This document shows, piece by piece, positions 9,314 to 64,000 of a stretch of DNA of 64,000 bases. The translations under genes and the position numbers were made by a program. This DNA comes from Tubulanus polymorphus (lineage: Eukaryota > Nemertea > Palaeonemertea > Tubulaniformes > Tubulanidae): assembly GCF_964204645.1 (NCBI RefSeq), contig NC_134030.1, positions 6,632,278 through 6,696,277 on the forward strand, written 5' to 3'. The notes below the pieces were generated by a model that was not told the origin of the DNA, did no database searches, and was given only the letters and a program-made list of their open reading frames with translations. Positions within the stretch are counted from its first letter, which is position 1. Each line of letters opens with the position of its first letter.

Positions 9314-12128
9314 TTAACTTGCGACAACGAATTCCAAATTTCTCTCGTGTTTGTGCGGTTGGTTGACCGCGTATTTCACTTGTGAACGCTGGAATGGTAC
9401 GATCGAATTCTCGAACAAATCGAACCGCGCCAGACGCACTCCGCTTCGGCATTTCCAAATTTCATCCAGTTTGATGACATTTTGACATTTCAAATGAACT
9501 TGTAACATGCCACGTAGATAATTCAGAAATGTTGGCCATGTATCTATATAATTTTCATTACACAACATAGCTTTGATTTCAGCTGTTAATAGGGCACCTC
9601 GAATGACCGGCCGTCTGCCGGTCCAGTTCATCAGTGACGTCATTAAAACCGCGTGTTTATTTTCGGCATTCAAACGCGGCGCCATGTCGTCGACGAGCTC
9701 GTATAAACCGTTGTTATAATCTGCCAGGTTCGACGTGGCGATTCGGTCGAATTTTCGGTCTTGCGGCACATATCGGTCGATGTATCTGTAATCGTCGACG
9801 ACGAATTTGACGTCGATGCGGCGATAGTTTTCGATCGCTCGGCGTAAAACGTGTCTGAAATACGCGTCGAACATGTCGACGATGTCGTTGCTGTCGCGGT
9901 GTTGTCGTACGGCGTCGTATTTCCACCAGACCGGCGGTACGCTATCGTCCGTAATTGCATACAACATCTCATCCCGGTAGTTCGGTCGTGGATAGCGAAT
10001 CAACAAACTTCGTATCAATAATGCATTCTCTTCTGATTCATCGCGCCACGGATTAATCATCGTTAGGGTCGAATTCGGGAATTTCATCATTTCTCGTTCA
10101 TCCGTGTCCCTGGTCCGCGCGAATAATCCGTCTTCGAACCACTTTTTGCATGAATTCACGTGACGTTTGGGTATCGAAGCCAGATAAACATCCATTCCCA
10201 CTCGGACTTCATCTTTGCTCATCATTTCCTTTCTAGATGATTTCATTGCTCCCACGGCTCTGCCATCAAATGCAAGGTCCTTCCATTTTCGCCAAATTTG
10301 TTTTAACGATTCAAATTTTCCTCCCAATACATCTGAATTTTCCTCCTGCACGATGAGCATATCCAGAGCTGAGACCAAATAATTGCGCGCGTCCAGAGAC
10401 AGACGGAGGGAATACATGATCTGTGACATCAAGCGACATGCCTCGTCAGTTGTAAATGTGTCCTTGCTGCATTTTGTACCACTTTCCTTGCTGCATTCCT
10501 GGTGTGTTTTTGCTTCAGTCATTATCATATAGTGAAAGAGCACATTTCTAGCCATTATGTGCGGACAAACATCGGCCAAAACGAAATTCACCTTGTTCCG
10601 GAACGCGTCTGGTATGTTCGCCGTCGTCAACAGTACTGAACCAAGGTTACCGCATCCAACGCTCAGAACGCTGATGTCGCATTCGTAGTCGGCGCCTTCT
10701 TTATTCGCTAACTGTAACCAATCTACGGCGGTCTGATTGCCCCAGTACCATGGCAAATCAGCAGATATGAATGATAGAGCATCAATAATCATACCAGCTC
10801 TTGAAATCCTGGAAAACAGGAAATTAGTTGTAATTTTTTCAAGGCTTTGGAAAAATATTGCGACTTTAAGTTAACTGTATGAAGCTATGGAATTATCAGA
10901 AACCTAGTTCCTTCTTTGTGTATTATGATGTTTTGTTTGTCATTTTCATTTATGTGTTGATTAGTTCGTTCATCATAGTTTGAAAAAATAAATTTGTCAG
11001 GATAAGGAATTAGCATTTTTGACCCGAGTAGCTGGAACACAGGGACTTCCATGGACCAGAAAATCTGTTCATTATAACACAACATCATTATTAGGACAAC
11101 AATCTTAAGTTCGTCGAATCAGATAAATCGTCAAATCAGAGTTTGTTCAAACGAGGTACCACTGAATGGACAGTTAGATATTTGGCCTTTGAAAAGTTAT
11201 GAAAAATCGAAGACTGCAAAGGTTACGAACTGTACGGATGCGCGAAAATCATGGCGCATGTCGGCGTTGAATTTGTTACACTCTTGTTTATGCGACGGCC
11301 AGTGTTTGCGTTGACAATCTCTCGAACAGTAACTGACGTTTAAACATCGACTGCACAACCACGTCGGTTTCACCACCTGGCAGAAATCGCATGGTCCAAT
11401 TTTATTGGTTCCCAAATGCTGGCAATCGATCTAGACGAAATTAGAAAAGAATTGAAAATACTGTTAAATTGAAATGATTTAATCTAATGTTGGTAGTTAT
11501 GGGTCAAAGATGAAGCTTGGGAGATATTGACGATAGTAAGATAACTTGATGATAAATTGAAAATGAATCAAAACAGTGTATACAAAGTAACTTATGTTTT
11601 ATCGACAACATAATGATTATTGAAGCTGTGCCGCCTATGCGTGAGACACGAGATGGATCTTAAAATGTTTGATCCGAGTTAGAAATAAGAAAATGTACTA
11701 CAATTTCACAAAATGGACCGAGATATTTTATCCGAGTTCGACTTAATCGTATATTATGTACCATCTTATTCCCTAATAGACTGATGGGACTTAAGGGCCC
11801 AGTTTCATGAAAAAAATTCACAAAAATTTTTGGTATAATTGCTTTTGGTTACTTCCATGTTTTCAATGAGGACAACAATTCAAACTTAACTGATTTAGGC
11901 TTAAGCTTTTTCATGAAACCGAACCCTAAAATTGACCGACATCAGCGTATGTCCGAGTTGAGTGTATTCGACCTATGCGTACTCTACTGTAATATTCAAT
12001 ACCTTATGTTTCGCGGCGTCTGCTTTTAAACATTGGTCTGTGCAGTATTTAGCAATTTTACACCTGCTGCAGGTTTTAACATCCTGCGGTTTGTCGCACT
12101 TCCAACAACATCCCTTCGCAGTATCCAT
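9314..12128 (-). CDS. MYND zinc-finger protein with DUF4470-type region
   Basis: Four exons are read on the minus strand: 12128-12003, about 11434 to 11244-11253 (two possible donors), 11064-10904 and 10808-9314. The start [20 protein letters not shown] opens a first MYND finger (CxxC, CSRC, YCTDQC, HKIDC) that is split by intron 1. A second, complete MYND finger follows in exon 2 ([24 protein letters not shown]). Exon 3 and the start of exon 4 resemble the DUF4470 region, including [31 protein letters not shown] and [17 protein letters not shown]. The methyltransferase-like glycine motif GCGNLG is suggestive, but enzymatic activity is unproven. The remaining 350 residues have no family I can name. 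MYND fingers usually bind proline-rich partner peptides. The start is the first Met before the first zinc finger. An in-frame upstream exon cannot be excluded. Confidence 0.8.
11790..11932. mobile_element. Non-autonomous element with GGGCCCAGTTTCATGAA ends
   Basis: GGGCCCAGTTTCATGAAAAA at the left is inverted at the right as TTTTTCATGAAACCGAACCC. The interior is AT-rich, about 140 bp, with no ORF. It lies in intron 1 of the MYND gene. Related ends occur at 15316-15430 and 57428-57562, so this is a dispersed family. The superfamily is not assigned. Confidence 0.65.
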
Positions 12129-29848: not shown

Positions 29849-34141
<4,293 letters not shown>

Positions 34142-46850: not shown

Positions 46851-49800
46851 TTACTGCTTTTTGCGCAATTTCACAACAATAGCACGTGCCTCTGGTGCTA
46901 CCGTCTGAATCTGCGCCAGAAATAACGGACCTGGCTCCACATTTAGAAGTTCGATAGATTCAACTAGAGTCATCAGTTCGTTGATTTTTAGAAACGGTTT
47001 CAGATAATGTCTAGTTCTGAATAAAAATACGCATAATAAATGAGTCTACGATTGATACTGATTTGAACTATCTTGACCGAGTAGTTTATCCATATTCACA
47101 GTCGATAACGTCACTGCTCTTTTGAACTCATCGTAATAATAACTTAACGAGCTGTGTAACTGTTCAAGTGTTAGTCCTTCGAGATTATTAACGTCGGTTT
47201 GTTCCGCGTTCGAACTGGAGGAATAAATGCGATCAGTTTCAGCGCGGTTTGGTCTAGACGTCTGTTCTCCTTGACGATGCCGCTTCCAAATCTCTTTCTG
47301 ATAAATGCTGAAAAACGAACGTTTACATGAGGAAAGTACATAAAATACTAACATCTTCACCGGGTTGGTCATTAACCGAGCGTTTGTATAAGGTATATTC
47401 GTAGTAGTTAAATAAGATATCCATACCTAATTTGTTGCAATGCAGCAGTCATATCGCTACAGTGATGTCTTGTTTCTGTAGCAATTCGCTGCACTATTTG
47501 CCAAGAAGCTCTAGTTTCCATTAGACAACCCTCTGCTACTGAACGAAGCTCTCTCTCTTGTAAAACCTGTGCTTTCAATTTCTCATTTTGTTCATAGCCC
47601 TAATAAAAAACAGTTAACAATCCAATTCATGAAAATAATGAGAGTTTTTTAAAAAGACGAACAGGTTTGTCTTACCCTTTGTAGCTGAATGGCCATTTCT
47701 TGCATTTCAGCCTCAAGTTTATCAGCATAAGAATGTTCCAGTGAGTTGCACGCCGGACACGCATTACTGTGCCAGCGAGCTATAGCATTAGTCATCTTCC
47801 GCCGGGGACCAAACAATCTACAAAATCATTTAAAAACACCACTGAGTTATGTGCAAGTTGTGTTAATTTACCTGTCTTTACTTAATTGACTTATACTTGA
47901 ATGTTTTAATTATAAAGTCATAATGTTTTGTATCATAACATAGGAGTACAAAAAATTGCCGAAGAGAGGTTAGAGCAGTGGGGGTGGGTCTGATTTGATT
48001 GTTTGACTCTGGAATGCCAGATCAGATTCAACTCAGGGATACCAAGTTTTGTAGTTTTTTAGTGAGATGGCGAGTATTTGATTCTCTACATAGTACGTAC
48101 TTGATACCGATTTCTTTCAAGTCGTTGTCCGTCAATGAAAGAAACACTTGTAAATCTACGTCCTGTTCTTCGAAAACCGTCAAATATTTCGTTAACCCGA
48201 GCTGTTGCAACAGCGTCTTCAAGTCTTTCATCTGATACGTGTTTTGTTGTAATGAATGAACGGGATAGCTATTGTTTGCGATGTTAGCTACTGTTTGTAC
48301 GGTTGAATCGATCAACTGACTACTGTTCGCTGTTGTTCGTTTCAGTGCGTCTGCTAGATTTTTACTGTCAGCTGAACCGCTTTTGATTGTCAGCGCGCCC
48401 GTTCTTGAAAATGCATCATCTTCCTCTTCAACATCCACATCTAATGATCCTGCCATTCAGAAATAATTCAACAAATTCATATGAATTTTGAAGAAATTTA
48501 CACAATGTACTGATAGAAATATTTCTTACCTCTGCTTGAACCTGATGAGCTTGAAGTATCTTGTTTATGATCATCTGAATGGATTGGTGATGTGAGTTCA
48601 CGGAGATTTGGTGACTGTCCTGTATTTGAAACACCTGCAATCACATATATACAATAGCAGATTCCCAACCACAAACCTTGGATACAACAATCTTCTCCTT
48701 CAGATTATACTCACCTGATTTGAGAGCTTCCTCTACTGTTTCGCTGTTTGACTTTTGTTTTTGAATCAGTTTAGCGAACGCGTGTGGGCCATCAAGAATA
48801 CTAGGACCTTTCAAGGAGATTTTTACTGGCCGGTTATTGGCAACATTTTGGTTGAAGTCAGATGAGCTTACATCACCTGAAATACATATCACAAATTCTT
48901 GAAATTCATGAAAGGTAAGGTGTTCTCAAAGTTTCTAACTCTGAAGAAAATTTTCACCAATCCAAGAAATTAAGAGCTATTCAGCAAGGTATTCAACTAC
49001 CTGGTTTTAGTCGTTTTTGAGATGCCACATGATAATCGATTAAGGAAGCCACCTTCGTATAACCCTTCATCAGAGCTAATGTGCGTGCATTACTATCAGA
49101 GTTATTCTTCAAATTTACATCTACACCCTAATAATATAAACAAGAAATTGAAGAGAATTTTGTGGGATCGTTCAGTGAGTTTTGTGAAGTCAAGGTAGAT
49201 TCAATTTGCTTACATTCTGAAGAAAGTATTGCACAATGATCTCATGACCTTCTGAAGCAGCCTCCATAAAAGGTGTCATTCCTTTATTAGGTTCCCTGAA
49301 AGGATAGATACTGCATAATACGGGTTGACCTGAATATTTCAGTGATGCTAATACTCATGCCAAGGTTTCAACCCTGTACAGTATGGTAGTGTCCCCAGGC
49401 AAGACGCATCCCTGTTGCATCTCTACACACCCAGGAAAAAGGGAGACAACTTGTGAGTACCAGGTATTGTGGGTTGGAGGTTTTTTGCTCTCCAGTGAGA
49501 GATGTTTGGTACACAACTACTAGGGATAAAAATACCAATGCAAGAAATCACAAATTGTCTATAAATTTTGGTTTTTTACCTGCTGTTCATATCTGCTTTG
49601 TTTTCAATGAGAAATGTTACCATGTTTTGATGGCCGGCCGATGTGGCATGAAATAAAGCTGTCCAACCTGAATTATCTTTGGCTTCCAATTCGGCATCAG
49701 CCTGAAAACGCCAAGAAAAAGACATACATTAACAAAACAGACAAGTCAAGACTAGCGTTAAGTTAAACGTGTGGGGGCTAACTTAATTTACTTATAATCA

Positions 49801-50349
49801 AGTTAGCCCCTGGGTTAAAAAGTCAATACCAGTCCTTAAGACTGGGCCTTGGTATTTTCAGTATTAATACGTTTAATTACAGTACCTTCAATAAGAAATA
49901 ACACACAGTATCATTTCCACAGCTAGCTGCCAGAATCAGCGCCGTTTGACCTTTGTTATTGCGGATGTTAACATCAACGTTCGCTCGTAATAAAAGCGTA
50001 ACGATGTTTTCATGTCCGATGTAACTCGCATACATCAACGGAGTCCAACCACCTGAATTCCTCCTATGCACGGACATTTCATCACTGAAAAGAAGGATAA
50101 TGATAAGTTGAAGTTCTGGAATTAGAGGTTATTAGAATCAATATAAATCAGTTATCTAAAATGAACTTACTTTTGTAAAGCATTATAAACACAGTCATAT
50201 TGACCGATACTGGCAGCTGTGTAGACGTCTAACTGGGCAGCATACGATTCTTCGGCTGATAAACCAGTCCACATTGACAGCGATGAATCGAACATTTCCG
50301 ATTCGGATGAATATCCTGACGAATCATCGAATTCAAATGATGAAGCCAT
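46851..50349 (-). CDS. ANKS3: ANKS3, ankyrin-repeat and SAM-domain ciliary scaffold
   Basis: ANKS3 is a scaffold that binds ANKS6, BICC1 and NEK7/NEK8-pathway proteins and acts at cilia in kidney and left-right patterning. The start Met precedes ASSFEFDDSSGYSSESEMFD. Ankyrin repeats follow in successive exons: LDVYTAASIGQYDCVYNALQ, GGWTPLMYASYIGHENIVTL, KGQTALILAASCGNDTVCYF, SGWTALFHATSAGHQNMVTF, KGMTPFMEAASEGHEIIVQY and a degenerate last one (ARTLALMKGYTKVASLID). A low-complexity Ser-rich linker leads to the SAM domain (MKDLKTLLQQLGLTKYLTVF, SLTDNDLKEIGIKLFGPRRK). A C-terminal coiled coil (YADKLEAEMQEMAIQLQRGY) and a final exon (46851-47015) ending ARAIVVKLRKKQ follow. The donor after SSN-CA joins the last exon in frame (Q-T-R-H-Y-L). 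Domain order and length fit animal ANKS3. Divergent from the DNAAF8-like gene. Confidence 0.92.
47965..48045 (+). mobile_element. Degraded tRNA-SINE head in ANKS3 intron
   Basis: CCGAAGAGAGGTTAGAGCAG and TTTGACTCTGGAATGCCAGA resemble the A-box region and the tRNA arm of the SINE at 43060. The body is missing. Confidence 0.5.
49365..49525 (+). mobile_element. Partial tRNA-SINE body in ANKS3 intron
   Basis: GGTTTCAACCCTGTACAGTA followed by GTGTCCCCAGGCAAGACGCA and CTACACACCCAGG tracks the B box and body of the SINE at 43060 with about one change in six bases. The head is mostly lost and there is no TTA tail. Confidence 0.65.
49755..49820. repeat. Short palindrome GGGGCTAACTT / AAGTTAGCCCC
   Basis: GGGGGCTAACTTAATTTACT is followed by ATAATCAAGTTAGCCCC, with TTAA-containing flanks on both sides. 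It is probably a tiny deleted foldback element in an ANKS3 intron. Confidence 0.5.
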
Positions 50350-51419
50350 TTCCGTCACAAGAGGCTCACAATATTGCGACTACCACTGGAATATTCTTGA
50401 GCTGTCTTCCCGAACCCAGGGTTTCACTGGTAGGCCATGAAGCCCGATCATCTGGCTTATTCAGTCAGGCCTAACTGGAAATGGAATAGGAAAAAATATT
50501 TCATTAATAATCAAACAACGATCGTGAATCTATCAGAGAATGGATAAGAGGTGCCGTGACAGAGGCCCGACACAATGAAAAGTTTTTGACTCAAGTAACC
50601 TAGTAAGATCTAGGTACTAGGCCTATATCTTTTTCTAAGCCTTGTATAGGCCTACTGGTACTGGGGTCAAAAACTTTTTGCATCTGCCGTCTTGCCCCTG
50701 TGGGCGAGGTAACAAACTGGTCACCAAGAACCTCTGGAAGAATGTCTGGGTGAGTGGGTGCACTAATAGGATCGTAGAGCAATGTAGATCACTGTGGAGA
50801 CAGCCACACGGCCAGGACTTGGTGAACTGGTGAAGTGGTTTGAATTTTGTTTGTTTGTGATGACAAGTTCAGAAAGTCAACACATTTATTCAAAATTGAG
50901 TGTATTCATCCCTCCTAAAAAACATGATAACTGTCAAAAATACATTCACTGACTTCTACGCAAAAACTCATGTATTTTCTAACCCATAAAAGCAATGTAG
51001 CAACCTTTTTTTGAGTGATCTTCATTTTTTACAAATATTTGTTGACATATAAAGTTCAACGCCACCTGTTTGCTTAAAGTCCATATCCGTGTTTTCAATA
51101 CCTTCGAATAATCCCGATCCGTGTTTTTATCCTGATATCCGGGTCCGTGTTTTCGTAGTGACATCTCAAAATATTTTTCTATTTCTGACAGGCGTTGTAA
51201 ACCTTTTTTTTTGATGAAACGGGGCAAGAGACCACCGGCATTTTAGAATCAAAGTAAGGTAAGATGATGTTCGTTTATGATAGTGGAGCCTTTAAAGGTA
51301 TATTGCTGAATAAACTCACATGAACGTGCCAGAATCGTCTGTATTTGTAAATTCAAATTAATTTTAGTTTATTGACTATTTACACTTATGTGATCGGGCA
51401 TGTTTTCGTTTATTTTAGG
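50350..51419. promoter_or_regulatory. ANKS3/DNAAF8-like bidirectional intergenic region
   Basis: 1.07 kb separates the two start codons. AGAATCAAAGTAAG followed by GTAAGATG at about 51245-51265 is a good 5' donor, and TATTTTAG directly precedes the DNAAF8-like ATG. A non-coding first exon ending near 51258 is therefore likely. I searched by eye for an RFX X-box (GTNRCC spacer RGYAAC) and found only a weak half-site (AGGTAAC at 50708-50714), so RFX control is not demonstrated. Confidence 0.6.
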
Positions 51420-54400
51420 ATGGCTTCGGATAGTGAAGATAGTGATCTGAATTTGAGTTCGCTTCACTCATCCCTTTCCGGCAGGTCGTTGTTGAAGCCA
51501 AAACTCGATACCATTTTCTCTGAGGTCACCAAAAATTTGCCCGATATCAGTTTTGATGATGACGGCTCTGATGTAAGTATATTTTGTTTTACAGACGTTT
51601 TTGTGCACCTGAACTTGATTTTCTCATCCTAGAACCCTTGCAAAGGACTCTAATCCTGAACTTTCTCTTTATGCCTATCCTAATACCTAACCAAACCCTC
51701 AATCTTATCAGTACACTAATCCACCCCAACCCACTCAGGATTAGGATAAGCATAAGGATAAGAGATAGGTTAAACTTATCTAAATACACCAAAATGTTGA
51801 ACTAGAGAAAGAACCTGGAATGCATTGAATGTTCTTTAAAAGTGACCTTGTATATATTTATTGCATTTGGTTGATAAGATAAGTTCTGAAGATGACGAGG
51901 CAGAAGTTCAAATATTCCAACGCCAGGTTGCGTGCGCCAGCGTTAATATCGATCATAAAACCCTCGTCCAAGACATCGATAAAGATCTAGATGAAAGTAA
52001 CGAAATCGTTAATGACGACGATATCGCGTCGTTTATAGCTGATCATCAGAAAAAAACGTCAGTTTCTGCCGGAACGAATGCCGATATCGGAGTGAGGAAA
52101 GTGAAAGCGAATACTACGGTTAGCGTTGGAACAAACTGGCACGATTTACAACCACCTCAACCGAAGGTAAGTTAATATTTTTCAATCCCAAAACCTAAAT
52201 ACGCGTAAGGGGAAACCGATGACTTGGATGACGCTTTGTTTGCTTAACGACCTTCAGATCGTGGTTTCCTAAGACTAACCCTATGGGATTATTCATTTAG
52301 CCCCATGACAAGACTGTCTTTGAAGTGTTGCTTGTAAACTGTAAGCAGCCATCTGGACTCGAGCCCACTTGTGACTCAGCACTGATAGTGAATGCAAAAG
52401 CTCCATGCCTTATCCAACGTACTGCTTACTGGTGAAAGGATAAAAAATGTCTATTTCATAAGTCATTAAATAGAGGCTTAGTGATTTGAAAAGGGTTTGA
52501 ACCCATGGTCAGGGATCGCGGAGTCGAACCACTCATCAACACACCGCTCGTCCATTTTACAGGTTAACAATTGGGTCGCTAACAATGACTCGACTTCGGA
52601 AACGAAGTGTGAAATAAACCGACAGGACAGCGACGAAGGAATAATTCCAGACGTCGGTGATCATTGTCGCGTTTCATCCGATCAAAGAAAACCGAATAAA
52701 CTAAAAACGAGTTATTCCGCCGAAGATTCGAAACAACTGGTATCGATGTATCTACCTTCAAACGCCCCGACACTTTCTTTCAATAATATATCACAGTTTG
52801 ACATCGGTAAGTGATGGTGTTCTAGTTATCAGTTTACACGGTGTGCCTTAAACTCCTTGATTCCTAAAAAATTCCTTCTTATCGGAAAATGCTCTTTAAG
52901 GTGATTGAAACTCCTTTAATTTAGCAAAATTCCTGAAACTCCTATAAAACACCTTTAATTTTGAGAAATAGGCAATTAGAAATTTGTACAGTAAACTATG
53001 CTTGAATCAGTACAGTTGGGATTTGTTTTCTACCCTATAAGCCTAATTAGAAACTGAGTTTAGATAACCTCTGACTATTCCCAATTTTGATGATTTCAAA
53101 CGAGCGCTTTCCTATTCAAAATCTTACAACATTTTACAACTCAGCCCATGCGCCGGAGAACATTGGTCACGATGAAATAGGCTCGGTTTATTTAGTATCA
53201 TTATAATTATTTATTTAAGATGAAGTTTTAGAAAGTGTTGATTCGAGCGGCACGACCGTAACGGAATCGATATACGACATCGGAGATATGTTGAATTCGT
53301 CATCGGCGGTGACAGCCGGAGCAGACGACGGAGCCGGAGAACAACGATCGATCATCGAACGACTGGCGAGTTTGTCGGCGAGTCACCTCGGCGAAGAGAT
53401 CAACGATATCGATCCTCGTACGGGAGCCATATCAAAGAGAAAACCGCAAACAAAAGAGGAAAAAACAGCTCGTAATAGTAGCAAAGTTACTGGTAATTGT
53501 CAGGGCTACTTTTGGGCGTCCAGTTCCCTAAATTAGCATATTGCTTCTCAGGCGTCCGTCCTTTCTGCCTGTCTTTCAGCGATTTAGCTTTCTTTAATAG
53601 TGGGTCGATCTTGATGAAAATTCAAAAAGTTGTCTTGACAAAATTCTGCTATTGGCCCTAGATACAACGTATCCATAATGCAATTGCTAACTAACGCATG
53701 GTTCTAGATTCCAAGGACCATTGTCGCCTGTTGCAACTAACTTCTTGATACTTTTTCAGCCGAAGGACAAAAACCAAAAACGAGTTCATCAGGGACGAAT
53801 ACGAATGACTTGGCTAATTATGCTAAAATTGCTCATACTTGTAAGTTTTCAACATCAAATCGTTTCGCGCTTATCATATCATATAATAGGATGTACGAAT
53901 AAATGTTCTATGGTTTTGCAGCGTTGATGCCACACAGTTCGTTATCGGCGTCGAACATTAAAACGAGCGACACGATTTTCATCGATTTACGAAATTTCGA
54001 TTTAATCAAAGAAGAACAACAGCGTAAAATAGAAGCGGTGCAACGCGTCCTAGGAATCGAACAAACTAACAAGTATGTAAAATACAATATCAATTCCGCT
54101 CAGCTCAAAATATCACCTGGTTACCTGGTATTTACTTTTTGCATCCGTTGGAAATATTGAACGGTTTTAAATTTTCACAGAGCCGAGTCGTCTGATGATG
54201 ACGACGACGATGACCGCAATGACCATGAACTTTGGCACGAACAAAGGCGTCGAATTAAGCAAACGTTGGCTTCAAAAGGAGTTCTTCCCGATGTTCTTCC
54301 ATCAAAACCTTCTCCACCGACGTAAGTATACATCGTTAATTATAGAGAGGGCAATCGTCAATTTTACCTTGAAATTCTGGACCGTATACAAACTAATGTT

Positions 54401-57400
54401 ATCCATAATTCAGTATTTCATGATGTAAAGTCGACGTATGTTTTTCCTCATTTTCCTGGTGGAAAAATGTTTGTTAACATATATCCTACATGCAAACTGT
54501 GAATAGATACGGGACTTGTTTAAATGTGATTGATTAAATCTTATGTTGAAGATTCCAACAACCAAAGAATAGAAAACAAGAACCGCAGAGGACTGAAACC
54601 AAAGTTGCCGTTGAACAATCCGCCCCAGCGGCACAGAATACGGCCACGTCAGAGATAACCAAACCTGATGTTGCTGATCGGAAGTTGGCACTGGCAGCTG
54701 AAGAGAAACGTAAGAAGTTCGAGAAAGCCAGGTGCGGTATATTCCATGTTGTTTCGAATAATGTTCTGGTTGGATTCTAGTACCTGAGAATGAAGTATTG
54801 TAATCTAATGTATTCGGTACAGGCGGTTGAAAGAACAAAAAGACCACGAACAGAAATCTCGCATTCGCCTCGGAAAACGTCTCGAAGCTTTAAAACCCAT
54901 CACGTCAATAAATGGTAGACAACCGATGGCTGAGGCTACTCCGACCATGTATCACGAGGTATAGTACACCCTCCAAACTTAGAACCTCTGTACCTGAATG
55001 TCATTCATCTTAAATCTCTACGCATCAGTCCGGGTAAATCTGTTTCTATTTTAGGAAGCTTCGTACGAACCGGAGCTTGACAACTTACCGTCGAATCTAC
55101 GCGAGGATAAAGAATGTTGTCTGATAACTGTTTTATTGTCGAGTAACGGAGAGATCGTGACTCATCGCGGACATGTGAATAAAAGCGTCGATTCTGGTAT
55201 GTATTCAACTTCATATATCAGTAAGCTGCTTCCTTGCTTGTATTACTGATGAATAGTGCTTAATAATCAAATAGAGCTTAGCTATATTGTTATGCTTCAG
55301 GAACCTAATTTCCACATCCAGCAAGAGGATTAAATTCACACAGATGTCTATTATGCATGATATTCTGGTATATTTTCACAGGTCAAGGTCTTTCGGCTAG
55401 TTATACTACGTTATTGACGTGGTTGTTGTCGCTTGTTCCGAATGATTTCACGTTCTTACAAGAAGAACCGAAACCTCGATCTACACATGCTGCTGCTGCT
55501 GCTGCTGATACGAGTTGTACTGCGCCGTTCCACGTGATTGGACTGCAGCAGATGTGGGCGGACGAACAATTGAAACTGGTCGTCGCGGTAACTGCAAACG
55601 CCGCTATGAAACCACCATCCAAATCTAGGAGAAAGGTAATATTCATTATTTTAGCATAAACACATCCTTTGAGTGTTGAAAAAACAGGACTTGCCTGTTA
55701 TGTAAACCCAATCACAATAACTGTAAAATCTCAAAGTCAATGAGGGAAATGAAAGGTTGCCCAAAGTAGCTGATCATGTTTATATTGGATGGAACTGAGT
55801 CCTAAAAACTTGTTCTTGATACTTTGAGCGCCAGACTATTATGTGTGAAGATATGATAGCTGTGCTATAAATTGATCATCTGGCAAAGCACTAGGTTAAT
55901 GCAGATTTCCAGGTAAACATATGTAGGCTGTTGCTTTGGGTATCTGATTGGGCAGTGGAGAGGTTATTGGGCATGCAGATGTACCCGGTAGATGTTTTCG
56001 GTTCAGTACTCAAGGCGTTTAAGAGTAATCTTATTCAATCAGTAGTTGTGATAAACATCACGTTCTGAACAGATGATTACTCACTGAATCTATAGATAGT
56101 GATTGGTTCGTTGTATATATTGTAGACGAGAGAGGAAGGGTCGACTCCGTTCCAGCAGCAGTTGATTAAATACCTCGCTATGAATACTCTACACACAGTC
56201 TGTCCATGGCTCGCGAATCTCGTATCGTTGGACGTTACGAATCAAGACGGCGACCATTCGTACGTTTATCGACCGCCGCTGCCGAATATCACGACGAATC
56301 CGCTGTCGACGTTCATGCAGATTGTTTCTAACGTCGACGCCGCGCGCCGAATCTTCGCCGCGCCGGTCGCGTTCTTCTGGCAGACGATCGAAACGGACGA
56401 ACTCTACCCAGATTTGGACGTCGACGAGACGAAACTCGACCACGACATGCAGAACACGATGTCGCTGATTTATAAAAATATCTACGTCGAACCGACGGCC
56501 ATGATGGGTATTTTCAATCGCGTTTTACAGGACGGTTTAGACGTCGCCGGCGTACGCCTCGTCTATCCGTCGACGGCTTACATCACGGCGAACTCCGGCA
56601 GCGTTCCGTCGCAACTTGGCCGACAATCGCGATTAGAAACGTTGAACAACATCGGACCGGTATTAGCGATCGTAATTCGCGGTACGTCGGCGCGTACGAT
56701 CTGGCTCGATACGATCGGACCGGCCGATCCGGTGCTCGCGCGGAAAACCGACCCGAATTCGGTGTGCGCGTTGTACGGCGGTGAAACGCGAGATAAAGTG
56801 TTGATTTTCTGTCCGCGTACGGCGACGCGGATATTCGTCGAGCTCGTCAGCTGGTTCAGCGGACGCGTGCCGTCGAACGGCGTCATAGACGTCGGTAAAC
56901 TGCCCGCCGCCACCGCACGGAAACGCTCGGGCAGTCCGAAATCGAGCGGCAAGAATAAGAAAGGATCGTCGTCGGAAACGGAACAAGATGAATTGTTAAT
57001 ATCACCGACTAAGCCGGCGGTTTTATTAACAGCTACGACGCTCAGCGATATCGTACTCGTACTGTCGCCTCTTCTACCGATCAGATGTTTCGGATTGATT
57101 CTAACCGTGTGTCAGCGACGCGGTTATTCAGTGCGTGGTATTAAACGTATGAAACTCACCACGAAAAAAGCGACCAGTTTAGGTAATCATTTTGTCATCA
57201 GTTCAATGATTAAGAAGGCTTAAGATTCGCTTGTTATCAATTCGTATGTCAGTGTGGATCAAAGGCACAGTTTTACGGTGGGGCTCGAAAGTTGGTTCGA
57301 GTTAATCCTCACAAAAATACCATGGTTATAATGAAATTGTAATTATCACTCTATCAACTATCTACTTGTTAACTCTAACCACCTTAAGAGCAACTGACCC

Positions 57401-60400
57401 CTGAAGCCTTAGTTAAGACCCGAGGGCCTGGTTCCTCAGTTGAGACTTAAGTCCAAAAACGGTCTTAGATTTTAAGATTGGTCTTAAGTTAGATTGGTTA
57501 CAGGACTAAGATGGTCTTGAATTGGTCTTAAGTCTAAGTCATGACTATGTTAACTGGGCCCTGAAGTTGCTTAAATCTTATTGCTAGAATCCGACTTTAC
57601 CATATTCGGTAAATGTTATCACTATTTTGTAGGTCTTATCGGTCAACAGACGGTAATGTTCAACCCTACGTCATCGCTTTCTCCCACCGATGATAAAATG
57701 TTCGATTTTTCTGATAATTCGATCCCCGAAATTCACCAACCTTGTACGCTGTTACTGCTGAGGAAGGAGAATGCTGTGCATACATCTGCCAGCCTTATCG
57801 AAGCATTTATGGTGCAGATGTCCATTCTTGGACTGTTAGGTAAGGTTACAAATCTAACGATAAAAAGTTCTCATCATATGCAGATGTCGTTCACGTTCAG
57901 GTTATGTATTTGCTGTATATATTTACAGGTCCGATTCAGCATTCTATTGATGTTAAGCTTACATCGAGACTGCTGTTTCATTCTGTTGGATTTACAGAAA
58001 CATTACTCAATAATCTAGGAGGGGATTTCAGCAAGGTATGCAGTGCATTAAAATCTTGATTGTTTATTTGTTTGTCAGTTCCTTCAAAATAGGCCTATTG
58101 CATCACTTCTAAAATTAACGGTGTTTATGATTTTTAGATGCCTGATAATGAAATTCAGCCGAGTCCGAGTTACATAGCGCCGAAAATGTACACAAATCCG
58201 GAATTAGAAGAGATTGTTGTGATAGCTTTAACCGGACACCAAATGATGAAATCTATGGGTATATTTGTTGGTACGTGTTCTGTAAGATCCATAGCAAACG
58301 GCATTAATAATCTGCTTTCAAACATGTTTTATTGTGGCATCCTTTTCCATTGTGTATCATAGTATAGATTTGCTTTGTGTATACCGGTAGTATTTTGTTA
58401 CTTGTGAATTACTATAGCCTTTTATCTATCTGTCTTTTTATCTGTCTTGTCACCCGACAACCTTTGCTAGTCTTGATCTTGGTTAAACAAATATTGCTGA
58501 AAATGTAGGATTTGAATTGTCCTATGTCTTAGCCATAAAGCAGGCATATGCCGCTTAGTATTCCGATAAACTACGACATTTTATCTAAAGCAATTTTTTC
58601 TGTGTCTCAGACCGATTTTCATTGTGTTTCTGTAGCTAAACTGTTGAATCTGTTGCCGTACGCGAACAAGTCTCCACCGTCGTACGTACGAGAAGGCTTC
58701 GAACTGCTCGGTATGAAATGGTTGTCGGGTTTAACGCCGAACCAAGCTCGCGAACTGACGCCGTACGAAGTCGGCGACAAGAACTGGAAGAGCAGCATTC
58801 ATACATTGACATCAGGTATAATTAATTCGCTTTAGCCAATTTATCTAAAAAGCATTTAATTGTAGTTTTATCGCTTAAGCGGTTCATGAATGAATATTCT
58901 ATTTGTAGAGCCAGCAATGATTTTAGTCGTTCGAGGAGAAAATGCATTTCAACGAGTAGAAAATATCATTGTTCCGAAGTCTATTTATCAAGTGAGTTAC
59001 GACTTCATCTTAATAGCTATCAATCTTTCACTCATCTTGTTATTGAATGGTATAACAACAGAATTTCAAGAATGTAGACATGTTGTTTGGTTGTTTTCTC
59101 CCACTAGGTCACCGATTCAAATTTACCGCTCGATAAGATGATGTCAGCTACACCTGAACTGGCGTATCGTTACGCGACAATGTTTTTCCATGAACGAGAA
59201 CTGTGGAGCGATCCGTCCAGTAGACCGTTGTTACCTTACCTCCCGCCTTCTCGATTCACGGCATCGGAATCTGATAAAAAACATTTGACAAAGTAAGACT
59301 AAGAATGATTATGATTTGGTGCTTACGATATCTGTAATATATATATATTCAACCCCTTTAAGGTTTTGGATGTATGTTAATGTCCTATGAGTTCGTTCTC
59401 AAACATCTTCACCCGTCAAGGTTCGAACCCACTACGCTAAAGCTGTTCGCCGAACCCCTTGACCTCACGAGTCGTTGGAGTCGTTACTAGCCGACCAGAA
59501 TCCGGTCCTACCAATCACAGCGCTCGTAACAAACCGTCAGTAGACTTCTGTTGGTTTTCCCGTTAAATTAACCAATCAGCGAACGTTTTACCGAACAAGG
59601 AAGTATTTCGCAAATCGATATATGACGTCATGCGCAACAGCGCCAGTAATGAAATCGTGCTTCGTGAGGCCAGGGGGCTGGTGGAAGCGAGTTCGAGAGT
59701 GATACCGGACCCCTGTCAAGCGAAGATGGTTCTCAAAGGGTTTTGTACATATACATTCATGTCAATACCTATCACCTGAGTGTTTCATTAGAATTACCCC
59801 GGTAAACACCCTAGCTGTTATTTCGATTGCCTGACATCCGAAAGATGTTGTAAGAGTCTTCATTCAAAGCAAACAAGGGTAAGACGGAATATTTACACTA
59901 AACGTAGTGAATTTTGTACAATTGAAACCCTGCAAAGATGGACTCAAGAAATAATTGAAACATGATTGAAGGGGTAAAAGGCAATAAATGGCAGTCAGCA
60001 TGAGAATATAGATGCGAGGGGTACCGGTATATAGCGGGGTAAGTTCAATTAGTCAATACCTATTAAAAATTGTCTTTCTCTTCATTATTGCATCATTAAC
60101 AGAAAGAAAACTCGTGGTTCACAAGCGATGAAATCGAATAGTCAAACTGCTATCGAGGACGAGCACATATTCCAGGCGATGTTAGCCGGCGCGCAGCCGC
60201 TGTGTACGATGCTCGTCGTAAAACCAGACGCGATGAAACACCTGACTAAAATCCTACGGCGCGTCGATTCGGAAGGTTTCGAAATCGTCGCGATGAACAT
60301 GCTCGTCTTTACGAGATCTCAGGCCGCGTACGCTATTCCGAAAGAAGCAGAGGAGGTGAATTTTTATTTTGAACTTTACTTTCACAGATCAGAAATTTCG

Positions 60401-62735
60401 AAAATGTCGATTTTATTCATGGTGGTCACTTGTCTGGAAATCAGGGTAAAGTCGGGGAATACTCAGAGAAAATCTGTAAAAACAGCAAAAAATTTAGGGA
60501 AATTTGTTGAGATTGCAAGATCGAGTTTCAAATCAAACAGTTACCAATCTCTGTGTTACGAATTTGACTGTGTTATTTGATTGGATTCTGAGCAGATCAG
60601 GGAAAACTATGTGCATTTTAACGTGCAATAGTTAGGGTAAAAGCAAGTCAACTAAAAGTGGCCACCCTTTATTTCCACAACTGCGAAATTCTTATTTCCG
60701 GAGAAGTCTTTTATGAGCTGTACAACGAATTGTGTATTCTACTCTTTCAGGATGATGTTGAATTAAAGAAACACGTTGAACATTTGACCGCTGCGCCGAG
60801 CATGGTAATGGTGTTGAAACGTGAGAATGCCGTCAAACGATTGGTCGATTTGCTCGGGCCGACTGATCCGCAGGGAGCTCGTCGTCTCAGTCAATTCTAC
60901 TGGAGGGGTGTGTTTGGAACGACTAGTATTTATAACGGTTTACACGGTAAGGACAAAATCTTTTTCTATGGCTATGATAGTCTTTAGCCGAAACTTGCTC
61001 AAATATATATATAAATTTCTATTCAAGAACTTTACATACTTGGTTGATTTATTGCTGAAATATCATCTTACACGGATATTGTAAATGTGTTTCTTCTCGA
61101 CTCAAACGTATTCATATGCCTCCCTCTTTCAAGGATAGTTTCTAATTTCAGGTTCCGTTACATATACAAAGGCGGTTGAAGGAATTAAGACATTTTTCCC
61201 CGAAGGCGTATGCTGTCAATCAACATTAAACCTTCACGCTGATGAGGTAGATAATTTGTAGTTTAAAATCATGATGGTCCTGCGATCAAAAGCAATTTTA
61301 TTTGGGGGGTGTGTGTGGGAGAATATTTATGTTCTCTTTTGATATATTAGATGTTACTAGTTCGCTATTTCAAATGTGTTCCTCTACATAACTCTTTGCA
61401 TGGCTTGTTAAGTCAACTAAGTGCCACTAGTGCAACCTTTTGGAAACTTGATAAGGTCTTAATTTGTGCAGAAAAGTGCATACTTTCGCTACAATTACTA
61501 CAAACCATGGTTTTTTCATCATCTATGTATTGTTTCAGATTCCGTGCCCGGCTATTGATCCCGATATATCGATCGACCAATATCGACGTCGTCGATTAGA
61601 AATGAAATCGCCGGAGGATGGATTGATCAGTTCGGCGATGTCTTCCCCGGGATTATTACACGTATCGTCCCTTACGCAGACTACGTGCATCGTGTTACCT
61701 CCACGCATCATTAACGGCAGCGGCCAAACGACGAAACATTCATACGTTGAAATCATCGATGGCTTACTCTCGCACGGGTATGTACTAGCTCTAGAGAACA
61801 ATTAAGGGAAACTCAATTCATCTAAAAATGTCCTCGTAGTGTGTGGTTAGTAACAGTAGGCACCGCTCGAGTCAGATGATTTTAGTCCTTGAAAACTTTT
61901 CCGACTTGAGATCTGATTTCTGGGTTCTGAGATTCAACTTGTGCTTTAACAAAACGTTCCTTTCACTCGTTCAAGGTTTGAACTAGTTGGAAGCAAAATG
62001 GTCAATTTGACGCAACAACAATCAGAAGACCTCTGTCATATCGTCGAAGCCGGAAATTTCCATCAAGTAAGTAACTACTTAATTCTCAATTTCTGTATGG
62101 GTAAAAGCCTAGGTCCATCTCAATAATGTATTTTCTTCGATAAAAACTGCTATAGGTTTGTATGTAATGGTATCTTGTATTTAAAAATTTCATTTGCGCT
62201 GTTTTTTCAGGTACCGATGTTAACGTCTGGTCCTAGTTTAGTTCTCGTATTACAGCGTGATAATGCCGTCAGGGGATTTCAGACGCTTACAATGAGGTAT
62301 TTAAGAAATATTTCTTCAGCTTTGCTCACTAGAATCTAATGAAATGTAATCGATAACTAGCGCCTGTTCTCCTGCTTTAAGGCCACAGAAGGCATCTTAG
62401 TAGTTCAAGTTGTTTGTTCATGTCCTACCAAATTATCCACACACATCCATTTGCATTTTCTTTGAACAGCAATTTGGTTCAGTTTTATTATCGAGCTAGA
62501 GATACTTTGATCCAATGCGGACATTGGAAAATTTCATTAACTTTTCAAAACGTATTTTTACTTATGTTTCAGTGTGATCATACGCGGTGAATCACTGAAC
62601 AAACGCTACGGCGCCGAGCTACTCCGTCCCCGAGATCAAAAACAATCCAATAATATGATACTGTACTTCTTCAACAATTTACCAACCGAGGGTCAAGTTG
62701 AGATACGATCAGCTAGCACTAGCGATACCGGTTAA
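51420..62735 (+). CDS. DNAAF8: DNAAF8-like axonemal dynein assembly factor fused to tandem NDK-like modules
   Basis: Twenty-five exons join in frame to 1705 residues, and the coding sum of 5118 bases is divisible by three. Residues 1 to about 600 are acidic and low-complexity, with the segments EAEVQIFQRQV, FDIDEVLESVD, RSIIERLASLSASHL and SDTIFIDLRNFDLI plus an Asp run and ELWHEQRRRIKQTL. These match my memory of DNAAF8/C16orf71 (dynein axonemal-associated protein 1, which retains dyneins in assembly condensates). A Gln/Lys-rich linker follows. The rest carries five modules with the NDK strand 'P.L.LVLRGENAV': GPVLAIVIRGTSARTIWLD (exon 12), PCTLLLLRKENAVHTS (13), PAMILVVRGENAFQRV (17), PSMVMVLKRENAVKRL (20) and GPSLVLVLQRDNAVRG (24). 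The fourth also has VVKPDA, GPTDP, WRGVFG and NGLHGS, so the catalytic His and most partners are present. The others lack them. Exon 12 (1057 bases) is GC-rich. Head to head with ANKS3. Human DNAAF8, as I recall, is about 520 residues without NDK. Confidence 0.85.
57428..57562. mobile_element. GGGCCTGGTT..AACTGGGCCC element in DNAAF8-like intron 12
   Basis: It begins GGGCCTGGTTCCTCAGTTG and ends TTAACTGGGCCC, with internal repeats of GGTCTTAAGTCTAAG in both orientations. About 135 bp, non-coding, with ends similar to the elements at 11790 and 15316. Confidence 0.5.
59293..60102. other. Long intron 18 of the DNAAF8-like gene, unclassified repeat-like block
   Basis: From about 59400 to 59740 the sequence is noticeably richer in G+C than the introns around it, with GGTTCGAACCCACTACGCT near its start and GAGTTCGAGAGTGATACCGG near its end. 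It looks like an inserted repeat, but I found no second copy or target duplication in this window. Confidence 0.35.
60421..60667. mobile_element. hAT-like MITE in DNAAF8-like intron
   Basis: The ends are GGTGGTCACTTGTCTGG at the left and AAGTGGCCACCC at the right. CAGGGAAAACT-type words fill the interior. It lies between exons 19 and 20 of the DNAAF8-like gene, splitting the NDK-like module that keeps most catalytic residues, but only in intronic DNA. Confidence 0.6.
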
Positions 62736-64000
62736 ATACGTACGGTTGTTGAAAATCTATATCTACATCTGATCTACATGAAATTCACTTTTGAGTGTAA
62801 TTTGTTTGTTGTTCCATTTTGCACGAAACGTTTGTTTTGAAACGGTTATTGTTATTTTTCTGCCGGTGTTTTTAAATGATGATTTATCTCTTCGTGCCAG
62901 TTAATCGAATTGTACATGCGTTGATGAAGTGGTAGAACTAGCTAAGAGTGAAAGCTCATGTTTTGCCAATGCAGCAGCGGTGTAGCTCTGTGTTGCTGAT
63001 ACAACAGCAGTAAAGCTCCATTTTGCTTATTGTTACAATAACTGATACAGTTCTGTTGAGCTCTGAAGCAGTGTCAGTAGTAGCTCCTGATCACAGAGTT
63101 AAGTTTTAAAAAATCCGTCCAAAAATGATTATTTTTATGCATATATTGTACGCTTACTTTTTAAGCACGGTACTGCATGTACATCTACCTGTGTTCTACA
63201 CTTAACATATTTGAAAAATTGGTGTTTCTTGATATTGACACCATTTACTAAGATATAAACTTTTGTAGATAAAATACTGAATCAAAAAAGTTATATGAGA
63301 GAAACTTCTTATTCAACTTTTTGCATGTATGTAAAACTTTGGAAGTGATTTTTTAATTGAACCGTAAAGTTGAAAAATTGTAGAAAATGATAGTGAATTA
63401 AACTGATTTTTTTACATGGAATTTTACATAATTCTATATTCACATCGTCATTCTACTACTTCAAATATTCCGTCCAATGTAAGATCATCTCATTTTGACG
63501 TATTCATAGAATGGCTGAGCTACCAGGTAATAGCTGAACTAAAGAAATACTCTTGATTTGATTATATAATTGATTATTACGAGTTTACATTATACGGTTT
63601 AAAGATGAACCATTTTAACTCACTGCTCTATGCGAGTTGACAGTCAATGACTCATTGTTGTTTAACAAATGTTTATATATTTTTGCCTATGTACGTTTCA
63701 TAGTAGATTATTTATTATTGCCAATAAATTTGAGAATGTTGAATTTTAAATTATGGCTCGGAATTCTTTCGTAGCTTGGAAATAATTCGCATTTGGTCTT
63801 GACTTTTGATTTTTTAATCAGATGAATGGCTAGTTATATCAGTGGACGAGAGACCCTTGACTTGGTCCGGGGTACGTGGTGGCATCAGTGACCACCAAAA
63901 TCCATAGACTTCTCAATATTTTCTATTAAGACGCAACATTAATGACGTATTTCAGATTTCATCGACTACTATGAACTGTCATATTGCAAGTACCAGGAGA
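62736..64000. other. 3' flank of the DNAAF8-like gene
   Basis: AT-rich 3' untranslated and intergenic sequence. AATAAA at 63723 is one possible polyadenylation signal. A partly repetitive stretch at 62960-63090 has AGCAGCGGTGTAGCTC and CAGCAGTAAAGCTCC. No further coding sequence is recognised. Confidence 0.5.

Follow-up and report, generated by a model that had tools for sequence, protein, structure and literature searches.

A gene joining an acidic N-terminal half to NDK-derived modules

Is a large gene that couples an N-terminal half, acidic and for the most part disordered, with a row of modules resembling nucleoside diphosphate kinase (NDK) domains a long form of the dynein assembly factor DNAAF8 (also named Daap1 or C16orf71), and what might such a row contribute to dynein assembly? 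The question is raised by a window of 64,000 nucleotides (C6:6632278-6696277, the whole stretch of DNA analyzed here) from a 268-Mb genome of 77 contigs, over which all genome-wide searches were run. On the + strand of this window, at 51420-62735, lies a gene whose 1705-residue product is, in our assessment, probably the long-form counterpart of DNAAF8.

Joining the 25 exons of this DNAAF8-like gene from the raw sequence yielded 5118 bases, corresponding to 1705 codons and a stop, and reproduced exactly the exon number, start, end, and protein length given in a preliminary description of the locus. All 24 introns were GT-AG with compatible phases throughout, the reading frame held a single stop as compared with 92 and 115 in the other two frames, and the GC content was 47% in exons and 36% in introns. 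Judged by its sequence, the gene is intact and is composed of the following parts:

51420..54958, + strand: acidic, mostly disordered N-terminal half (exons 1-9, residues 1-549)
55055..56437, + strand: segment X, folded-looking (exons 10-11 and the start of exon 12, residues 550-785)
56459..56869, + strand: NDK-like module M1, catalytic site lost (exon 12, residues 793-929)
57017..58035, + strand: degenerate module M2, marginal (exons 12-14, residues 979-1138)
58204..59206, + strand: NDK-like module M3, catalytic site lost (exons 15-18, residues 1161-1303)
60200..61216, + strand: NDK module M4 (exons 19-21, residues 1365-1503)
61674..62681, + strand: NDK-like module M5, catalytic site lost (exons 22-25, residues 1559-1688)
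62733..62735, + strand: stop codon TAA of the joined gene model

The modules M1-M5 together span residues 793-1688. At the Pfam NDK cut-off of 27 bits, M4 (78 bits, E 8.2e-22, matched over its full length) and M5 (32.5 bits) scored above and M1 (16.7 bits, or 21.6 in the longer exon frame) and M3 (19.4 bits) below, and M2 gave no match to this family. For profile-profile comparison by hhalign, an 11-row NDK alignment that excluded M1-M5 was used as the reference, its rows being the NME8-, NME7-, NME5-, and NME1-4-like domains of the genome itself, E. coli Ndk, human NME1, and the NME7 segment of 7ung_5. Against this reference, hhalign returned 95.5% for M1, 93.5% for M3, 99.6% for M4, and 96.7% for M5, a marginal 16.7% across 31 columns for M2, and at most 0.3% for the controls (three N-terminal segments and segment 550-785). 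The real score was reached by none of 100 shuffles of each module, as compared with 18 to 95 of 100 for the four control segments. Two HMM profiles, run with filters off, gave a similar picture: that built from the genome's own domains ranked M4 > M5 > M1 > M3 > M2, the mostly bacterial one placed M3 above M1, and under both profiles none of 200 shuffles equaled any module, M2 itself scoring 8.8 and 6.3 bits.

The preliminary description had reported five copies of the NDK strand motif, and this is borne out, since the motif was legible in all five modules, with QPCTLLLLRKENA as the M2 version. A strict form of the pattern, written after the modules had been seen, matched four of them (M2-M5), the GPVLAIVIRGTSA of M1 deviating from it, and occurred in none of 1000 shuffles. 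By these comparisons, four modules (M1, M3, M4, and M5) are secure as NDK-derived, and M2 is marginal, the evidence for it being a weak profile match together with the strand motif. The further claim that one gene encodes both the acidic N-terminal half and the NDK-derived C-terminal half is likewise supported by the frame, profile, and hhalign results.

Loss of catalytic residues and group II character of the modules

We tabulated ten active-site positions in NME1 numbering. M4 retained six of them (K12, T94, R105, N115, H118, and S120) and had lost Y52, F60, R88, and E129; M1, M2, M3, and M5 all lacked both H118 and K12, the His column being a gap in M3 and M5. The full set of nucleoside diphosphate kinase (NDPK) active-site residues was present in none of M1-M5 at the ten positions. 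An earlier statement that one module keeps the expected Lys, Thr, Arg, Asn, and His holds for M4, which alone has all five, although the four losses limit its significance. The accompanying notion of a nucleotide-binding array is not supported, four of five modules having lost both the catalytic His and Lys12.

In a PDB search, the closest solved structure was NME7 for M1 (E 1e-6), M4 (E 1.9e-26), and M5 (E 1.1e-4), and for M3 it was the bacterial NDK 2hur (E 0.0054), which we take to be E. coli Ndk. M4 was identical to the first domain of the genome's NME7-like protein at 39 of 132 positions. The alignment further revealed a three-residue insertion common to M1, M4, and NME5/7/8 and absent from NME1; a three-residue insertion in the Kpn loop is described as a mark of all human group II members in excerpts of PMC7024210, where the tested group II members, NME6 perhaps excepted, had no measurable NDPK activity and some autophosphorylated. 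From the lost active-site residues, the insertion in M1 and M4, and the NME7 best matches, we conclude that the array probably descends from group II proteins and is for the most part non-catalytic. Nucleotide binding by M4 may persist, but phosphotransfer probably does not, judging from the residues it has lost.

The other NDK genes of the genome (L106-L109, named by eye) comprised an NME8-like gene with three NDK domains, an NME7-like gene, an NME5-like gene, and two NME1-4-like genes in tandem. H118 and R88 were kept in all six NME8-, NME7-, and NME5-like domains. The two NME1-4-like proteins matched human NME1 in 86 and 75 of the 135 residues aligned, less than would be expected for a vertebrate, and we therefore regard the host as probably a non-vertebrate animal. 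A COX1 gene was not found in the genome.

Relation to the published long form of DNAAF8

The published accounts used here are cited from excerpts. In those of Lee et al. 2020 (PMC7785291), all non-mammalian vertebrate Daap1/DNAAF8 orthologs are described as carrying, in addition to DUF4701, a long extension at the C-terminus that includes an NDK domain, and those of mammals as DUF4701 alone, without the extension; DUF4701 is termed vertebrate-specific. Compared with this description, the DNAAF8-like protein shares the order of a disordered N-terminal half followed by a long NDK-homologous C-terminal part. It differs in having four clear modules and one marginal one where a single NDK domain is described, in giving no match to the DUF4701 profile, and in its probably non-vertebrate host. 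Mammalian DNAAF8 (520 amino acids in the excerpted table of PMC12633730) is also largely disordered and has ANKS3 as a neighbor in the cattle list discussed below, but it has no NDK part and is less than one third as long as the protein described here.

Within the N-terminal half, the landmarks were IFQRQ at residue 63, TIFIDLRN at residue 364, and a run of seven Asp at residue 402. Charge-hydropathy analysis in blocks of 100 residues classed five of six blocks in residues 1-600 as disordered and all eleven in 601-1700 as folded-like, placing the switch from disordered to folded near residue 600. No Pfam family scored above its cut-off in residues 1-549. When this half was searched across the genome, all nine matches fell within the DNAAF8-like gene itself; the N-terminal half being without a second copy, no rival candidate is better by sequence. 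Segment X gave a single Pfam match (E 0.015, below its cut-off), was folded-like in composition from about residue 601, and was not NDK (hhalign 0.11%). LD-like stretches were found at residues 29, 228, and 1089; human C16orf71 has an LD motif that is rated highly likely by experiment in excerpts of PMC7703752.

The neighborhood of the gene provided a second line of evidence:

48028..50379, - strand: ANKS3 neighbor gene (three ankyrin frames and a SAM frame, with Pfam Ank and SAM matches)

ANKS3 lies head-to-head with the DNAAF8-like gene. Its first ATG, read by eye, is at 50349, so that the two starts are some 1.07 kb apart, and the best PDB match of its SAM domain was ANKS3 itself (4nj8, E 2.1e-13), with BICC1 and ANKS6 ranking lower. 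In the excerpted gene list for cattle chromosome 25 (PMC12075139), NUDT16L1, ANKS3, DNAAF8, and ZNF500 are consecutive; judged by gene order in that list, the ANKS3 adjacency of DNAAF8 is found in the window as well. None of the other cattle neighbors was recognized by eye among the frames of at least 75 amino acids in the right 20 kb (22 and 20) or of at least 85 amino acids on the left (66 frames). A scan for X-box motifs found two with one mismatch in 50300-51450, as compared with 15 with at most one mismatch window-wide, and was too weak to use. A single conserved neighbor is no proof of orthology; the ANKS3 adjacency combined with the two-part layout of the published long form makes DNAAF8 the best reading.

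Proposed role in outer-arm dynein assembly

In excerpts of the Xenopus work (PMC7785291), Daap1 localizes to the outer-arm portion of dynein assembly particles, its depletion leads to loss of the outer arms, its N-terminal DUF4701 part is enough for localization, and its pull-down partners include Dnai2, Dnai1, Dnah9, Nme9, and Ruvbl1. By analogy with this compartment and outer-arm role, shown there for the DUF4701 part, the disordered acidic N-terminal half of the present protein would concentrate it in the cytoplasmic dynein-assembly compartment and hold outer-arm subunits. The C-terminal row of group II-type NDK modules would then act largely without catalysis, as a platform supplying further binding contacts while outer arms are assembled; NME8/NME9 or other NDK-bearing subunits may be among its partners. 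We propose this platform role tentatively and rate it slightly below an even chance. The C-terminal part would subsequently have been lost in mammals, as published (PMC7785291, excerpts). Taken as a whole, an explanation combining a single 25-exon gene, a long-form DNAAF8 counterpart, a non-catalytic NDK platform, and the loss of the C-terminal part in mammals appears to us somewhat favored.

Apart from DNAAF8 itself, three known systems bear comparison. NME7, an axonemal protein with two NDK domains, is the top solved match of M1, M4, and M5 and shares the group II insertion, but it has no comparable N-terminal half, and the genome holds a distinct NME7-like gene (L108, named by eye). NME8/TXNDC3, an outer-arm subunit with thioredoxin and NDK domains, is alike in being a dynein-linked protein with tandem NDK domains, whereas the NME8-like gene here (L106, named by eye) is separate and its three NDK domains retain His118 and Arg88. 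The Tetrahymena NDK-domain protein Q22MS1, likened here by its description, has a proposed role in dynein assembly or transport, yet it is called Tetrahymena-specific (PMC12633730, excerpts).

Contrary evidence and alternative explanations

Several results weigh against the DNAAF8 and platform interpretation. The Pfam DAAP1 model, PF15773 (DUF4701, 505 positions), had no match at E <= 10 either to residues 1-681 or to seven shorter stretches (six within about 1-563 and one at about 556-800), in searches run with the HMMER filters, by which most matches with E above about 0.1 are discarded. Genome-wide, it had no match at E <= 0.001 or E <= 10; prokaryotic control genomes also gave none, so absence is unproven. 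The profile test, which the preliminary description itself had named as a possible refutation, thus came out against the match of the N-terminal half to DNAAF8 put forward earlier: the TIFIDLRN and FIFQR-like motifs cited for it are present, as TIFIDLRN and IFQRQ, but the match itself was not confirmed, and on sequence grounds we do not count the protein among the proven members of the DAAP1/PF15773 family. On the C-terminal side, M2 is marginal, and the excerpts describing the published long form (PMC7785291) mention "an NDK domain" that resembles those of Nme8 and Nme9, a single one as compared with four or five here, where the best solved match is NME7. A tree of the modules had long branches with two of 13 inner branches firm, and M1-M5 were neither placed nor joined in it. 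Structure prediction was useless for exon 12 alone (mean pLDDT 33.8) and poor for M1 with 17 bacterial Ndk rows (mean pLDDT 51.5, pTM 0.45). In a Foldseek search with the M1 model, NDKs and axonemal assemblies appeared among the first 50 of the 314 rows, with no match at E <= 0.001; the search was given no weight, because the input alignment was made of NDKs and the result is partly circular. Lastly, the Xenopus pull-down construct was the N-terminal part (1-527) according to the excerpted methods, and Xenopus C16orf71 according to the results text (PMC7785291); if the bait was 1-527, the published partners need no NDK part, which argues against their docking on the array.

The possibility that two genes, one DNAAF8-like and one a separate NDK gene, had been joined in the model concerns intron 18 (before M4) and intron 11 (before M1). 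Intron 18 is the longest, at 810 bp, the exon 18 frame reaches TAA just past the donor, and + strand AATAAA (59983) and ATTAAA (60062) hexamers lie within the intron; downstream of the stop codon, the first AATAAA/ATTAAA hexamers are at 63397 and 63723. However, a part of the intron is repetitive:

59404..59728, + strand: high-copy repeat of 325 bp in intron 18 (genome search)

Forty of the 46 matches listed for this repeat, the query included, were at 95-97% identity, with 40 of 1171 first-look candidates scored; tandem copies occur on contigs C1 and C3, among other places. The promoter-like motifs of the intron, CCAAT at 59511 and 59572 and TGACGTCA at 59623, sit within the repeat, which weakens the two-gene reading; without the repeat, the intron measures 485 bp, comparable to introns 11 (490) and 12 (450). 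A boundary in intron 18 is weakened accordingly, its excess length and CCAAT/TGACGTCA motifs belonging to the repeat, and what remains in its favor is the TAA and the two hexamers, both outside the repeat. A boundary at exons 11-12 was rejected, as intron 11 is single-copy, has no + strand AATAAA or ATTAAA, and joins exons whose phases fit, as they do at intron 18. Since the fusion is, in addition, published in vertebrates (PMC7785291, excerpts), two genes appear very improbable to us, and one gene is the better reading of the sequence, though not proven.

Two further explanations accept a single gene. In the first, the protein is unrelated to DNAAF8 and arose in one lineage as a fusion of an acidic protein with a group II NDK array, its place beside ANKS3 being due to chance; this would fit the lack of a PF15773 match to any N-terminal stretch and the failure to recognize any DNAAF8 neighbor except ANKS3. 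Disordered regions evolve fast, however, and PF15773 may, we presume, be built mainly on vertebrate sequences; moreover, ANKS3 adjoins the gene as it adjoins DNAAF8 in the cattle list (PMC12075139, excerpts), and the two-part layout equals that of the published long form (PMC7785291, excerpts), so that we consider this explanation unlikely. Alternatively, M4 could have NDPK activity, or could sense nucleotides and so time the release of dynein, as its full-length NDK match and six retained sites, H118 among them, would allow. Given the loss of Y52, F60, R88, and E129 and the lack of measurable NDPK activity among the tested group II members, NME6 perhaps excepted (PMC7024210, excerpts), an active or sensing M4 seems decidedly unlikely. 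We retain a single gene for a long-form DNAAF8 counterpart with a largely non-catalytic NDK row as the preferred explanation.

Other features of the window

On the - strand, at 9314-10870, a 518-amino acid open frame carries a DUF4470 domain (Pfam E 4e-16). DUF4470 occurs in DNAAF3, and this frame may encode another dynein assembly factor within the window. At 30132-31610 and 32233-33711, three - strand frames are repeated with identical translations, exactly 2101 bases apart and beside long TA-repeat runs, as either a tandem duplication or an assembly artefact. Downstream of the DNAAF8-like gene, two stretches (L117:9232-9962 and L118:63-446) contain frames that, by eye, look like the protein-primed DNA polymerase of Maverick/Polinton-type elements.

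Implications for the evolution of DNAAF8

The preliminary description had considered the vertebrate protein a truncated derivative of a larger ancestral factor. The direction of this proposal is right, but the short form is mammalian and the long form is that of other vertebrates (PMC7785291, excerpts); with "mammalian" replacing "vertebrate," the main evolutionary claim is already published. A DNAAF8 form outside vertebrates, or one with several NDK modules, was not found in the open-access literature, and what is new here is the probable counterpart outside vertebrates and its several NDK modules instead of one. A more far-reaching reading, which we regard as rather doubtful, is that the ancestral, pre-vertebrate DNAAF8 was a large scaffold whose four to five mostly dead NDK-derived modules docked NDK-bearing outer-arm subunits; the modules beyond M4 would have been overlooked in vertebrates because they fall below family cut-offs, and mammals would have dropped the platform. 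If the interpretation is correct, DNAAF8 would be no vertebrate invention, despite the description of DUF4701 as vertebrate-specific, and an NDK-like platform of several modules would have been part of the original protein. This would raise the questions of what role the C-terminal part plays where it has been kept and of what has replaced it in mammals.

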